Virus record (IMG/VR): IMGVR_UViG_3300034092_001644
Location: 1-26,129 of that record
From: a virus
Reading direction: 5' to 3' (one strand)
DNA length: 26,129 nucleotides
The position numbers and the translations under genes are program-made. The notes beneath the pieces are model-generated. The model did not search any database. It was not told the DNA's origin and worked only from the letters and a program-made list of their open reading frames with translations. Position 1 is the stretch's first letter. Each line of letters starts with the position of its first letter. Positions 2-23,436 of this stretch are shown in pieces.

Positions 2-1174
2 TTAAGAACTTCAAATAGTAATGACTTTTATCCTGAAACATGGTTAGTTCAAGTTCATAAAGAAAAGATTGATTTAAGTGATGTTACATTTATCATTCCA
101 GTAAAGTACGACCACCCACACCGAGAAGAAAATTTGCTACTTAATATCTTGCATCTTCAAAAGTATTTTAACACCAATATTATAGTAGGTGAAATAGGCA
201 ATCATTTTAAATGGTTAGGTAATCATGTTAATTACGTGAATTTTGATTTATCAAAGTTTCACCGAACTAAGATGTTAAACGAAATGACTTTATTAACTGA
301 TACACCTTATATAATTAATTGGGATGCTGATATATTTATTTCGCCAGTTCAAATATGGCAGGCAGTAGATATGTTAAGAAGTGGAACGGATTTTGTTTAT
401 CCTTATGATGGCAGGTTTGCACGAGTGCCACGAACAGAAAGAAAAACAATAGCAAAATACTTAGATGTTGGTATGCTAAAATCAAACTATTCAGGAATGA
501 ATAAGGGTGATATGGTTAGCGTAGGTGGTGCAATAGCCTATAATAAGCAATCGTTTATCAATGCAGGTGGTGAAAATGAAAATTTTGTGAGTTATGGCGC
601 AGAGGATTTAGAAAGATATTACAGATTTAAGACATTAGGTTATAAAGTAGAAAGAATAAAAGGGGCATTATACCATTTAGACCATGCAATTACTATTGAC
701 AGTTCTAATAAGCACGAAGATTTTGAAGCTAATAAGAAAGAATATGATAAGGTAAGTAGAATGAATAAACAAGAATTAGAACTCTATACATATACATGGC
801 AATCTATAACAACAGATAAAAAAATAGAAAGTAAAAATTTATTACCTTTAAATATTAAAATAAATAGCACAATGAAAATTACATTAGATAAAAAGTTTTA
901 CGGTCAAACGGCAGTATTTCATGGCTTGAATATTAAGTTGGATGCAAACACTCCGCAGCATCATTTAGAAATATTAGCGGATAAGATGCCACACTTAGTA
1001 AGTGTTGATTACGATGTTGAAGTAAAAAAAAAGCACGAACCTTTGAACGTACCTATCCAACAGCCTACTACATTAACCTTGACCGAGCAACCGAAAGACG
1101 AAACAACTTTGAGCGAAGCGTTGCCAAAACAGCAATCAAAGCCGAGAGGCAGGAAGCCAAAGATGGCAAAGTAA
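2..1174 (+). CDS. Glycosyltransferase, GT-A fold with 7C-like C-terminal motif (5' partial)
   Basis: The reading frame is open to the left edge of the window, so the true start lies outside; the first in-frame NTG (TTG at 134) would cut off the conserved first strand, which reads like TFIIPVKYDHPHREEN and is typical of GT-A enzymes. A DAD triad (the DxD metal/nucleotide-sugar motif) lies at nt 323-331, followed by a YGAED motif near nt 593-607 and a conserved histidine segment, as in the galactosyltransferase C-terminal (Glyco_transf_7C) family. It should transfer a sugar from a nucleotide donor; the acceptor is unknown. The last 46 zero-frame codons are a low-complexity Pro/Thr/Lys/Gln tail ending in an AT-hook-like PRGRKPK. 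This tail overlaps, in the other frame, the start of a GT25 domain (see 1027-1033). Family-level call is firm; substrate is not known. Confidence 0.8.
   Translation, partial: LRTSNSNDFYPETWLVQVHKEKIDLSDVTFIIPVKYDHPHREENLLLNILHLQKYFNTNIIVGEIGNHFKWLGNHVNYVNFDLSKFHRTKMLNEMTLLTDTPYIINWDADIFISPVQIWQAVDMLRSGTDFVYPYDGRFARVPRTERKTIAKYLDVGMLKSNYSGMNKGDMVSVGGAIAYNKQSFINAGGENENFVSYGAEDLERYYRFKTLGYKVERIKGALYHLDHAITIDSSNKHEDFEANKKEYDKVSRMNKQELELYTYTWQSITTDKKIESKNLLPLNIKINSTMKITLDKKFYGQTAVFHGLNIKLDANTPQHHLEILADKMPHLVSVDYDVEVKKKHEPLNVPIQQPTTLTLTEQPKDETTLSEALPKQQSKPRGRKPKMAK
1027..1033 (+). other. Candidate -1 programmed frameshift site, A AAA AAG
   Basis: Nine A's (1024-1032) followed by G give, in the frame of the upstream glycosyltransferase, codons GTA AAA AAA AAG. 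The last seven bases are A AAA AAG in the correct phase, the slippery heptamer used by E. coli dnaX. A one-base backward slip enters the frame that encodes the GT25 domain up to 1641. That frame is stop-free from 1021 but has no ATG, GTG or TTG before 1207, well inside the domain. I see no convincing downstream stem-loop or upstream Shine-Dalgarno stimulator. Alternatives are transcriptional slippage on the A-run, phase variation, or a one-base sequencing error (A10 would fuse the frames). Confidence 0.6.
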
Positions 1175-1641
1175 TACAAGGTAATGAGTTTCTAAATTCC
1201 TATGAGTTGGGTTGTGTTCTTTCTCATATCGAAGTAATTGAAAAAGCCAAAGCACAACAATTACCATGTGTGTTAATATTTGAAGATGATGTTACTTTTC
1301 CTTTAGATTTTGATTTTAGGTTTCAACAATGTTTAAATGATTTACCCGAAGATTGGGACTTATTCTATTTATCAGGAACGCCAAAAACAACACCACAACC
1401 GATAAGCGAACACGTATGTAAAGGCGGGGGAATGTGGGGAACGTTCGGATATATGATTAGGGAAACCGTTTACGATTTTATCTTAATGGAGTTCAAAAGA
1501 CAACGGTTAACAGCCGATAATGCACTGATAAAAATTGCAGGTCTACTAAATGTGTATTGTGCAAAAAATAAATTAATTTCACACGCAGCAGGATATTCGT
1601 ATATTGCTCAAAAAGAAAGAAACGTACAATGGCTGATATAA
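1033..1641 (+). CDS. GT25-family glycosyltransferase domain, expressed by -1 frameshift or fused to upstream GT
   Basis: Read from 1033 in the -1 frame, the product starts with a short linker, then AYYINLDRATERR, the typical GT25 opening strand and arginine motif. Next come a KDGK segment, ELGCVLSHIEVIEKA (the GT25 'GC.LSH' motif), LIFEDDV with the acidic metal-binding cluster, a DWDLFYLSG strand and a glycine-rich segment near the C-terminus. GT25 includes lipooligosaccharide galactosyltransferases and collagen-type transferases. The first NTG codon, TTG at 1207, would delete the INLDR region, so independent initiation would give a broken enzyme; this argues for translation by frameshifting from the upstream GT, giving a two-domain enzyme of at least about 546 residues. 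The 3' end overlaps the portal gene by 13 bases. An AUU start at 1072 cannot be excluded. Confidence 0.75.
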   Translation, partial: ARTFERTYPTAYYINLDRATERRNNFERSVAKTAIKAERQEAKDGKVIQGNEFLNSYELGCVLSHIEVIEKAKAQQLPCVLIFEDDVTFPLDFDFRFQQCLNDLPEDWDLFYLSGTPKTTPQPISEHVCKGGGMWGTFGYMIRETVYDFILMEFKRQRLTADNALIKIAGLLNVYCAKNKLISHAAGYSYIAQKERNVQWLI

Positions 1642-2834
1642 AAGGAAAAGTTTATAAATTCTTTAACAGAATAGTTGAAGTAATAGATGATAAGAGCCGT
1701 AAAGATTGGATATTTTATGGCTATGATAACTTGTTTCCAAACAAATTACTTCGCTATATTAATGAAAGCGGAACAGCCAAGATGTGTACAGACAAAGTAG
1801 CTGAATACATAGAAGCCGATGGCTTTGTGAGTGCTATTACTACTGCATATAGATTTAATAAAGAGCAAAAAGGCGATGACTTCTTAACAGATATAGCGCA
1901 ACAAGTTGCAATATTTGGTGGGTTTGCTTTACTAATTAAAAGAAATTCATTTAACGAAGTAAAACAAGCCGAAGTATTAAGTTTAGATAAGATTAGAAAA
2001 GACAAAAACGACCCTAAAATACTTTGGTATAATAAGAACGTAGGTAATACACAATATCAAGAAAAAGAATGGAAACAATATCCAGCCTACAATCCTAATG
2101 CTACAAACATATTTACTGAATATCCACAAGGCGAAATAGCCTACTTCTATAAAAAGTCAGCAGACAATCCGCATTACCCAATACCGAGTTATTATGCAGG
2201 TATTGAAGATGTGATTAGTAGTGCCGAAATTTCTAAAATGGACTTAGAATTGGCATTAAACGGATTTATGCCGAGTTCATTAGTTACGTTTATAGGTAAC
2301 CCAAACCAAGAAATTCCAGATAGTCATGGTAAAACGGTTGACGATTACTATGATGAAGTATTAGAAAGTTTTACAGGTGGTATTAAAGACAGAGATGGGT
2401 TAAGCGGAAGGTTTAGCCTGCTTAAATTATGGGCTTCAACTAAAGATGAAGTGCCAGTGTTACAGTCGTTTGATGCTAAAGGTATTTTAGATGCAAGTAA
2501 CGCCAAGCGTGAATTAATTAATCGTGAAGTGTGCAGGTTGTTTAAAGTACCGCCAGTATTAGTTGGATTTAGCGAAGCCACAATATTAGGCAATCAGTTA
2601 GCTTTGGCAAATTCACAAAAAGTTTTGATTGATACTGTAAATCCGATGCAAAGATTTATAACTGATAGCTTAAAATATGTGTTTCCTGCAATGGATTTTA
2701 GTATTTCACAGAAACAACCGTTGGCGGTGGCTGATAGTGCTTTATTAGATGTATTGACAGCAGATGAGAAAAGAAATATATTTTGGGGCTTAGAACCTTT
2801 AACCGTTAATACTACTCAAAATGTTAATCAGTAA
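1629..2834 (+). CDS. Phage portal protein
   Basis: A 401-residue protein matching portal proteins of Bacteroidota phages in length and pattern: an N-terminal alpha/beta part, a YPIPSYYAGIEDV segment near residue 185, an 'ELALNGFMPSSLV' helix-to-core transition, and a C-terminal 'NREVCRLFKVPPVLVGF..ATILGN' segment typical of the portal stem/wing. Portal forms the dodecameric ring through which the terminase packages DNA and to which the neck attaches. The start ATG overlaps the preceding GT25 frame by 13 bases and the stop overlaps the next gene by 14 bases, suggesting translational coupling. The nearest upstream genes are glycosyltransferases rather than terminase, which lies at 24133. Confidence 0.8.
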   Translation: MADIKGKVYKFFNRIVEVIDDKSRKDWIFYGYDNLFPNKLLRYINESGTAKMCTDKVAEYIEADGFVSAITTAYRFNKEQKGDDFLTDIAQQVAIFGGFALLIKRNSFNEVKQAEVLSLDKIRKDKNDPKILWYNKNVGNTQYQEKEWKQYPAYNPNATNIFTEYPQGEIAYFYKKSADNPHYPIPSYYAGIEDVISSAEISKMDLELALNGFMPSSLVTFIGNPNQEIPDSHGKTVDDYYDEVLESFTGGIKDRDGLSGRFSLLKLWASTKDEVPVLQSFDAKGILDASNAKRELINREVCRLFKVPPVLVGFSEATILGNQLALANSQKVLIDTVNPMQRFITDSLKYVFPAMDFSISQKQPLAVADSALLDVLTADEKRNIFWGLEPLTVNTTQNVNQ

Positions 2835-9283: not shown

Positions 9284-9577
9284 CTACTTTCTGAACTCAC
9301 GCTGAAATTCATATAAATCAACAGTTATGCTATGGTAGCAGTATAATGGCATTTTTTCATTTAATTTAGGTAGTTCAGTTCTTGAATGACCTACTCTTTT
9401 AATTGCACCATCCTCAATTAATTTATTGAATTGCTCATAAGTAATTTCTAAATCATACGGATTTTCATAACTATCCTTACTAAATTGCATATAGTATTTA
9501 GATGTAATCTCATCTTTATCATTGTCGGTATAAAATCTATAATAAATAGATTTAACCATTAATTTTTTTTCAAACAT
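9284..9577 (-). CDS. Small hypothetical protein, 97 aa
   Basis: An alpha/beta protein with many Tyr and Phe residues: beta-like N-terminus (MVKSIYYRFYTDND), a central helix (EITYEQFNKLIEDGAI) and a C-terminal helix ending VDLYEFQREFRK. No cysteine cluster, membrane segment or catalytic motif. It belongs to the leftward set of small genes; the ATG at 9575-9577 is preceded by an AT-rich leader. A second in-frame ATG six codons downstream is a possible alternative start. Confidence 0.65.
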   Translation of the reverse strand: MFEKKLMVKSIYYRFYTDNDKDEITSKYYMQFSKDSYENPYDLEITYEQFNKLIEDGAIKRVGHSRTELPKLNEKMPLYCYHSITVDLYEFQREFRK

Positions 9578-20887: not shown

Positions 20888-21346
20888 ATGCCAATACCGA
20901 AACCAAATAGCACCGAAACCAAAGACGAATTCATTCAGCGTTGCATGAGTGACGAAACGATGGTGAACGAATATGACGAAGCGCAGCGTTATAGAATATG
21001 CCTATCTTCGTTATCGGTTGACAACATCATTAAGGCTGAAGAAACATATAATGACTATCCACAGGCAGCATCAGAGAATGCTAAACGTGCATTGAAGTAT
21101 AGAGAAGAAAGCGGAAACCCTAAAGGTTGCGGAACGCCAGTTGGTTGGGCAAGGGCAAACCAATTAGCCAAGCGTGAAAAGATTAGTAGAGATACGATAG
21201 CACGAATGGCAAGTTTTGAACGACATAGGCAAAATAAAGACGTGCCTTATGATGAAGGTTGTGGCGGTCTTATGTGGGATGCTTGGGGTGGTGATGAGGG
21301 CGTATCATGGGCGCAAAGAAAGTTAAAACAAATAGATAGGAAGTAA
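20888..21346 (+). CDS. XkdF/prohead-protease-associated domain protein
   Basis: I choose ATG 20888 (MPIPKPNSTETKDEF) over TTG 20882. The N-terminus 'IPKPNSTETKDEFIQRCMSDE' and 'EAQRYRICLSSL' is the short Cys-containing motif often found at the start or end of Bacteroidota head-maturation proteins. The rest ('YPQAASENAKRALKYREESG', 'CGTPVGWARANQLA', 'SRDTIARMASFERHRQ', 'GGLMWDAWGGDEGV') is a well-conserved module seen in the same context. No protease catalytic residues are evident, so it is an associated domain rather than the enzyme. Role in head assembly is possible but unproven. Confidence 0.55.
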   Translation: MPIPKPNSTETKDEFIQRCMSDETMVNEYDEAQRYRICLSSLSVDNIIKAEETYNDYPQAASENAKRALKYREESGNPKGCGTPVGWARANQLAKREKISRDTIARMASFERHRQNKDVPYDEGCGGLMWDAWGGDEGVSWAQRKLKQIDRK

Positions 21347-21963
21347 TGAGCAAAACAACTAAAATAAAAGACTTAATACCTGACAACAAGAATTTCAACA
21401 AAGGCACTGAATACGGTAATAGCCTTATAGAGAAGTCATTAAGAAAGTTTGGAGCAGGTAGGTCAATTCTAATTGACAAAAACAACCGTATCATTGCAGG
21501 CAACAAAACAATTGAAAACGCTGCTGCAATAGGCTTAGAAGATTTACAGATAGTTGAAAGCGATGGCACTAAGATAATTGCCGTTAAACGTACAGATATT
21601 GATTTAGATAGCAAAGCAGGTAGAGAATTGGCACTTGCAGATAACGCAACGGCAAAGGCTAATATTGATTGGGATATTGAAACCACTTTTGAAGTAGCTA
21701 ATGAGTTTGGATTTGATGCAGGGGAGTGGGGAATAAACAACTTTGAAACAGCATCGGAAGTTGACTACTCAATTCTTGATGATGAAGATGTAAGTAAGCA
21801 ATTGGAAGAAATGACCAATGGAGTTAAGAAAGCTATTCAGATTGAATTTGAAGCCGAACACTACGAACAGGCTTATGAACTTGTAAAGTTTTGGCGTGAG
21901 CGGAATGCTTATGTAGGTGGTATGATAATGGAATACTTAAAAGCAGAGAAGGGAAAGATATGA
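21346..21963 (+). CDS. ParB-like N-terminal domain protein
   Basis: Residues about 8-75 form a ParB/Srx-like domain: 'LIPDNKNFNKGTEYGNSLIEKSLRKFG', 'GRSILIDKNNRIIAGNKTIENAAAIGLE', resembling phage ParB-type proteins often encoded beside DNA methyltransferases and terminases. Residues 90-205 are a partly acidic helical extension with 'AVQIEFEAEHYEQAYELVKFWRER'-like pattern. ParB-fold proteins bind or cleave nucleotides and DNA. It overlaps both neighbours by one to four bases, so it forms a unit with the methyltransferase and oxygenase that follow. The exact activity is unknown. Confidence 0.75.
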   Translation: MSKTTKIKDLIPDNKNFNKGTEYGNSLIEKSLRKFGAGRSILIDKNNRIIAGNKTIENAAAIGLEDLQIVESDGTKIIAVKRTDIDLDSKAGRELALADNATAKANIDWDIETTFEVANEFGFDAGEWGINNFETASEVDYSILDDEDVSKQLEEMTNGVKKAIQIEFEAEHYEQAYELVKFWRERNAYVGGMIMEYLKAEKGKI

Positions 21964-22655
21964 AATTAAACAAAGGAGAAATCAAAGGAATTAAATTTTA
22001 CTATCGTGAAGGCATGTCAGATAAAAAAACATTTGATGAAGTTTTAGGCAAAGAAGTTTATTTAAAAAAAGGAATGATAATTCAAGTAGGTGAAACTTGG
22101 ATGGACTGCGGTGGCAATGTAGGGGCGTTTACTTTATTAGCTTGTTCAAAAGGTGCAAAGGTTACAGTTTATGAACCAGATCCTTTCAACTGCGAAATGA
22201 TAAAAAAGAATTTAGAATTAAACGGATTTAGTGCAGAAGTAAAACAAGCCGCCTTAGTTCATAACGACACGAAAGAAATCATTTTATTTATTGGCAACAA
22301 TGGCAATGTGTGGAGGAACTCGATAGTAAAAAAATGGAATAACAAAGGGATAAAAGTGCCTTGTTTGAATTTTGATGTTGAAGCTAAAAACTTTGATTGT
22401 TGCAAGATGGATATTGAGGGTGCAGAAATGCTTATTTTAGAAAATACAAATAAGGTTTTTAAAAAGTTGGTTTATGAATGGAGTTTTGATATTGATGGCA
22501 GCCTAAATAGATTTAGAAAAGTTGTTGACAACCAAAAACAAATCTACAACAAAATAGATATTTCAGATAAAAGATATTATGAATTAGCAGATGAACATAT
22601 ACCTAAAAGATTTATAGTTCCTTGCACAAACGTATTTTGTTATGAAAAGAATTGA
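21960..22655 (+). CDS. FkbM-family SAM-dependent methyltransferase
   Basis: The Rossmann motif I is DCGGNVGAF (residues 49-57), with an acidic residue E72 after motif II strand (VTVYEPDP), and a 'KMDIEGAE' motif at 149-156, all typical of FkbM-type methyltransferases. The N-terminus is about 45 residues of strand-rich sequence. FkbM enzymes methylate sugars or other hydroxyl groups and some act on nucleic-acid-linked or lipid substrates in phages; no cytosine-methyltransferase PCQ motif is present. It is coupled to the ParB-like gene and the oxygenase that follows, suggesting a shared pathway. Confidence 0.8.
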   Translation: MKLNKGEIKGIKFYYREGMSDKKTFDEVLGKEVYLKKGMIIQVGETWMDCGGNVGAFTLLACSKGAKVTVYEPDPFNCEMIKKNLELNGFSAEVKQAALVHNDTKEIILFIGNNGNVWRNSIVKKWNNKGIKVPCLNFDVEAKNFDCCKMDIEGAEMLILENTNKVFKKLVYEWSFDIDGSLNRFRKVVDNQKQIYNKIDISDKRYYELADEHIPKRFIVPCTNVFCYEKN

Positions 22656-23436
22656 TTTAAAACAAGTTGAACACAACCGAAAAATCGGTGAAATGTGCGA
22701 ATACATTGAGCCAAATGTTACCGAAGATAGTATTTTTTACTTGGATGGCGAACCGATAGGCTTTTACCTGACAAAGATGCCCGAAAAGATGTGCAAGTTG
22801 GCAGATTTGGCGAATGCGGAATTGAGAAGCAAAAATGTTCCTAAAACGGAAATGAAACGCGCCCCTACAGATGGGGTAGATGAAAAAACAGGCAAATACA
22901 AATACAAAAATGTTGTTTTGCAATATTCTACAATTATTGGAGGAGTTCCACCAAAGCCACACATGAGAAGGAATTATGCAACATTATCAAGTGTTCATGG
23001 AGTTAAAACAGCACAAACATTCATAAAAGCAATGTTGTTATTAGCAAAAGAAAGTGAGCAGTTAATTAAAGAAATACTACCAAAACAATATGAGCAACAA
23101 GTAAAACTATTTGAGGATGTGCCAAATAAATGGAAGTTTGGAAACATATTTACGAGTTCAATTTCAAACTTTAATATATCAGCACCTTTTCACCGAGATA
23201 CAGGTAATATAGTTGGAGCAGTAAACGTGATAATTTGTAAAAAATTCAATTCAAAAGGAGGTGATTTGCATATTCCTGATTACAACGCCACTATAGGACA
23301 ACAAGACAATTCTATTTTAGTTTATCCAGCGTGGAAAAATGTTCATGGAGTAACACCAATTAAACCGACTTTTGAGGGAGGTTACAGAAACTCACTTGTT
23401 TTTTATCCATTAAAAGCATTTGTTAATCTAAAATAA
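22642..23436 (+). CDS. TET/JBP-like 2-oxoglutarate/Fe(II) oxygenase
   Basis: The C-terminal half has the double-stranded beta-helix oxygenase signature: FHRD with H184 and D186 (HxD iron ligands), a strand 'AVNVIICKKF', GGDLHIP at 206-212, 'NVHGVTPI' with the distal ligand H235, and 'GYRNSLVFYP' with R249 for 2-oxoglutarate. The 'GG.L.iP...i.......lvy....vHgv.P' pattern matches phage TET/JBP enzymes, which oxidise the methyl group of thymine or 5-methylcytosine in DNA. The N-terminal 170 residues are helical and phage-specific. It is coupled to the methyltransferase gene. The family call is good; the base it acts on is unknown. Confidence 0.75.
   Translation: MKRIDLKQVEHNRKIGEMCEYIEPNVTEDSIFYLDGEPIGFYLTKMPEKMCKLADLANAELRSKNVPKTEMKRAPTDGVDEKTGKYKYKNVVLQYSTIIGGVPPKPHMRRNYATLSSVHGVKTAQTFIKAMLLLAKESEQLIKEILPKQYEQQVKLFEDVPNKWKFGNIFTSSISNFNISAPFHRDTGNIVGAVNVIICKKFNSKGGDLHIPDYNATIGQQDNSILVYPAWKNVHGVTPIKPTFEGGYRNSLVFYPLKAFVNLK

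Follow-up and report, generated by a model that had tools for sequence, protein, structure and literature searches.

Organization of the locus

The window, i.e. the whole stretch of DNA analysed (26,129 nucleotides), is a 26-kb record from an uncultured tailed phage. An ORF open at the window edge (2..1174) encodes in succession a GT7C/GT2-like glycosyltransferase, a linker module of 54 codons (872..1033), which has a conserved ATG at its start and a run of nine adenines (A9, 1024..1032) at its end, and a tail of 46 codons beyond the run (1034..1174). In this zero frame, positions 1022-1033 read GTA AAA AAA AAG, and A9 together with G1033 contains the heptamer A_AAA_AAG (1027-1033) in the zero-frame phase. 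The frame lying -1 relative to this ORF is closed by a TGA just 5′ of the A run (1018..1020) and opens right after it (1021-1641); it overlaps the 46-codon tail and encodes, following the shift, 202 aa of a family 25 glycosyltransferase (GT25, 1033..1641). Its earliest ATG, GTG or TTG is a TTG at 1207, well within the domain. The portal gene (1629..2834; phrog_11226 portal, E 8e-25) is directly 3′ of GT25, and all of these features are on the plus strand. The first-pass annotation had described a GT25 frame that lacked a start before 1207, overlapped the last 46 codons of the upstream ORF and would be entered by -1 slippage at the in-phase A_AAA_AAG; these points were borne out by the sequence, and every coordinate that we checked holds.

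From residue 10 after the shift, the predicted protein matched PF01755 (E 5e-14), its 53 bits exceeding the cut-off of 24. In common with members of this family, it scores above the Pfam cut-off and has the INLDR and EDD motifs, but it differs in having no start codon of its own and in being reached, as it appears, only via the slip site. Shuffling predicted 7.6 A9 matches in the window, compared to the 3 present. The run is therefore not rare by composition, and the evidence lies in its position and conservation and not in the run alone.

Conservation in related contigs

A search of related phages for the same split with a conserved A run, as had been proposed in the first-pass annotation, found it in eight further contigs, all with A9. 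Including the window, A9 and a GT25 in the -1 frame were thus present in nine contigs belonging to three lineages. Protein searches yielded five close relatives from other metagenomes, comprising three distinct sequences (GT25 87-93% identical to that of the window), with GTAAAAAAAAAGCA at the same place in all five; a run scan that was agnostic to length revealed A9 alone among them. A second scan, for AAAAAAG shortly 5′ of a Y-x-INLD motif, added three more distant contigs, namely G007 and G008 (GT25 58-59% identical) and G009 (36%), in which GT25 is in the -1 frame directly after A9 and the TGA closing this frame shares the first A of the run. Most other matches to this pattern were unrelated sequence. 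The GT25s of G007 and G009 also matched PF01755. Near the GT25 start, ATG, GTG and TTG were absent in all lineages, save for one GTG located seven codons into the GT25 frame in G004 and G005. An ordinary ATG is present 5′ of the motif in further GT25-like genes, such as those of L077 and L080, and in the GT25 of LR756508. Several of the contigs compared are fragments, and since the lineages share a common ancestry, they do not represent independent events. These comparisons give strong support to a conserved recoding event by which GT25 becomes fused to the upstream ORF.

The lack of a start codon was specific to GT25. When plus-strand ORFs of 180 codons or more in five contigs were tested for a start in their first 30 codons, the startless ones (4 of 123) were solely those of GT25 in the window, G007, G008 and G009; the fifth contig, G005, has the GTG seven codons into this frame. 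In a scan of all A or T runs of at least 8 on both strands of eight contigs, the sole run joining an ORF to a startless ORF was that before GT25; this was so in seven of the eight contigs, the exception, G005, falling outside the filter solely on account of its GTG.

The best terminase relatives, approximately 35% identical, came from Bacteroides and Phocaeicola phages, and on this basis the hosts of the phage group are most likely Bacteroidota. Named phages had distant GT25s only and no relative for the linker module or the capsid protein, and bacterial genomes gave just two distant GT25s. The search for further distant capsid or portal relatives gave a single portal (24%, in L033), on a contig without GT25 or the A9 join. 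Two further observations concern the terminase genes of related contigs. In G009 (L092, G009:C1, 9545-9586), the terminase large subunit seems to start with MKSNPNFRFLKKK followed by a stop, its reading resuming in the -1 frame after another A9 run at 9574, which gives A_AAA_AAG and then TAG; since it was seen in a single contig, this split may be an assembly error. In G008 (L091, G008:C1, 30331-32397), the LLQGGTR motif of the terminase ORF is split by an insert that starts with CFVGSTLVMAEHGPKKIQDI and by eye looks like an intein.

N-terminal partner, linker and gene order

The genes are arranged in the order of protease, capsid, a 200-aa gene, variable glycosyltransferase and methyltransferase genes, the N-terminal partner, A9, GT25 and portal. 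In the stretch from the capsid region to the portal, the glycosyltransferase and methyltransferase genes present differed among L016, L017, L088/L089 and L090. The partner varies as well: 1) in the window it is the GT7C/GT2-like protein (PF02709, E 6e-8), 2) in G002 and G003 it has GT11 and GT7C domains, the ORF beginning with GT11, 3) in G001 it is an ORF without a family match that is glycosyltransferase-like by eye only, 4) in G007 and G008 it is a GT2, and 5) in G009 it is a small protein without a family match, with glycosyltransferase-like genes elsewhere in the contig. The upstream ORF of G004 and G005 is interrupted by a TAG. A TAG inside the upstream glycosyltransferase ORF was observed at 4468-4470 of L006 and 3409-3411 of L005, originating from two metagenomes, with the linker, A9 and GT25 intact in both.

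Three different upstream ORFs (window/G002, G001 and G007) were each found to enter the linker in frame with no stop. The linker is 83-96% identical in the near lineage and 46-48% in G007 and G008, and it has its own ATG in all contigs but G009, in which it is not recognisable; homology of the G009 partner to the linker was unsupported (hhalign probability 0.05%). Modelling of the linker fold gave a low-confidence model with no meaningful PDB match.

A double glycosyltransferase, as claimed in the first-pass annotation, would be formed in some lineages but is not a general feature, given the TAG in one lineage and the lack of a glycosyltransferase match for the G009 partner. As the partner may be GT7C-like, a GT2, an ORF without a family match or a small protein, the double enzyme is not what is conserved; judging from the nine sequences, the constant unit is A9 plus GT25, situated between the capsid and portal genes. 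Since A9 has been retained even where the preceding gene was replaced, the slip is probably a genuine signal that serves the phage, and not an error.

Reading frame under selection

In the near lineage, variable sites at the first, second and third zero-frame codon positions numbered 9, 3 and 25 in the linker before the run (p=3e-5), 7, 19 and 8 in the overlap (p=0.02), and 18, 72 and 32 after the overlap (p=4e-9). The peak of variability thus shifts across the run from the third base of the zero frame to the third base of the GT25 frame. The overlap is short, with 34 variable sites; read in the GT25 frame, 20 of the 34 substitutions were synonymous compared to 23% expected (p=1e-5), whereas in the zero frame 6 of the 34 were synonymous compared to 21% expected (p=0.68). 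The synonymous excess in the GT25 frame, with none in the zero frame, indicates that selection acts on the GT25 reading. When the window is compared with G009, the proteins are similar from the lysines onward, as KKKxRxF. The zero-frame tail ends with a basic stretch in every lineage (KPRGRKPKMAK, KQKGKKQKTVKN and SKKRGRPAKVTA), and the overlap substitutions revealed no detectable constraint on it. Selection therefore gives no support to a useful short form, nor to the regulated ratio of short to long products that had been suggested on first reading.

Proposed slippage by RNA polymerase or by the ribosome

We consider it very probable that A9 is a selected recoding site giving rise to the GT25 fusion. 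The comparisons show the arrangement, its conservation and the frame-specific selection; that slippage takes place, whether in transcription or in translation and how often, is inferred from them. A fraction of expression events would shift into the GT25 frame at A9, through either the addition of an A by RNA polymerase, to give an A10 mRNA, or backward slippage of the ribosome by one base, and translation would then pass from the C-terminal linker of the upstream protein into GT25. Both routes would generate the identical VKKKARTF junction and identical proteins. One product would be the upstream protein ending in the 46-residue tail, which is apparently free of constraint, and the other would be that protein with a C-terminal GT25. 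There appears to be no credible way other than such a slip for GT25 to be produced in this phage.

Slippage by RNA polymerase, in which a share of the mRNA would be A10 and be translated normally into the fusion, has in our estimate an even chance of being the route; -1 ribosomal frameshifting at A_AAA_AAG or A_AAA_AAA is a real but lesser possibility. The length of the run is conserved and its codon phase is not, with GTA AAA AAA AAG in the window lineage and GAA AAA AAA AGC in the other two (G007-G009), the in-phase heptamers being A_AAA_AAG and A_AAA_AAA, respectively. No downstream stimulatory RNA structure was found in any lineage, the folding energies being no better than those of shuffles, and the slip region had no match in Rfam. 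By eye, an upstream Shine-Dalgarno-like element is not conserved, only G009 having GAGGTGG approximately 15 nt upstream. With a variable heptamer phase and neither a hairpin nor a conserved Shine-Dalgarno-like element, slippage by RNA polymerase is at least as likely as a dnaX-type event. Nine A's allow efficient slippage by RNA polymerase in bacteria (PMC5009743); poly-A slippage operates in tssM (PMC4256274), and frameshifting was 40% with a reporter cassette of nine A's (PMC3711429). However, the shift is always in the -1 direction, which is taken as a sign of ribosomal frameshifting in PMC3711429, and all lineages have a slippery heptamer in the zero-frame phase, that of the window lineage, A_AAA_AAG, being one at which shifting occurs very readily in E. 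coli (PMC5009743). Set against the ribosomal route, besides the missing stimulators, are the weaker heptamer (PMC5009743) in two of the three lineages and the retention of nine A's, not of a heptamer, in every lineage. The window lineage has the heptamer and phase of dnaX in common with that system, but here the phase is not conserved and the stimulators are lacking, and the shift would give a longer product whereas that of E. coli dnaX gives a shorter one. The dnaX-type ribosomal mechanism originally proposed is consequently not established by a run whose phase varies while A9 stays.

Explanations without such a slip were also weighed. In bacteria, phase variation is seen in surface-glycan genes that contain poly-A tracts of 8-9 (PMC3441752), and by analogy the run could toggle in the DNA between A9 (off) and A10 (on) within the phage population; this is very unlikely, since the run is A9, which does not read through, in every one of the nine contigs, and neither A8 nor A10 was found in the close relatives, so that no run-length polymorphism between genomes was found. 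We give just as little credence to GT25 being a separate, unfused gene with a non-standard start, such as the ATT or ATC of the INLDR motif or the GTG of G004 and G005. Although that GTG is suitably placed, the other lineages have no ATG, GTG or TTG in the N-terminal part, a start at ATT or ATC would cut into the conserved motif, the KKKxRxF residues 5′ of the motif are conserved, and GT25-like genes elsewhere possess an ordinary ATG before it. Homopolymers are error-prone, but the chance that the window merely has a sequencing error or a decaying pseudogene is negligible, because the occurrence of the same split in nine contigs, from different datasets and with protein divergence of up to 64%, excludes an error or a lone pseudogene, and because the GT25 frame is under purifying selection.

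Relation to known systems and possible role

Phage recoding is known mainly from tail chaperones and binding-domain extensions, and no report of recoding to attach a glycosyltransferase was found in the open-access subset of the literature. In the recoded Ig-like domains, the SPP1 tail protein and TpeX of lactococcal 936 phages, a domain from another frame is likewise added to some copies of a protein encoded in the late region (PMC5009743, PMC6669499), and at the present locus, too, an extension in another frame follows the slip site. The Ig-like and TpeX extensions are binding domains, whereas here the added domain is an enzyme, and their recipient is a phage structural protein, whereas here the recipient is placed only by its position between the capsid and portal genes. 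In poly-A transcriptional slippage, as in Thermus dnaX, Citrobacter tssM and Shigella secretion genes, approximately nine or more A's set the short versus the long product (PMC5009743, PMC4256274). Similarly, nine A's are conserved here whatever the codon phase (nine contigs, two phases), but the setting is a phage glycosyltransferase and the slippage a putative one.

The EDD motif is kept in all nine GT25 sequences, and hence the enzyme is likely to be active. Its site in the capsid-portal region, beside changing glycosyltransferase genes, suggests a late role in infection, in modifying glycans of the virion or of the host surface. Elsewhere in the window (21346-23436), a gene without an assigned function, an FkbM-type methyltransferase and a TET/JBP-type oxygenase were noticed in a row, for which no match was found in the related contigs, some of which are fragments. 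A link to DNA-base glycosylation via the oxygenase was rejected, since the oxygenase has no match in these relatives and is thus not needed for the A9-GT25 arrangement.

It is conceivable, albeit doubtful, that the linker-bearing protein is a head or connector component carrying a limited number of glycosyltransferases added by slippage. If true, the phage would glycosylate the particle itself or, with the enzyme acting from there, the surface of the host, and the fusion would parallel the recoded Ig-like domains, with an enzyme as the added part. Should slippage at A9 be shown, selection would be acting on a poly-A run rather than on a stimulated heptamer, and an enzyme of this kind would be truncated or missed by gene callers. 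The A9 site would also offer a compact natural test of slippage by the ribosome versus RNA polymerase in what are likely Bacteroidota hosts.
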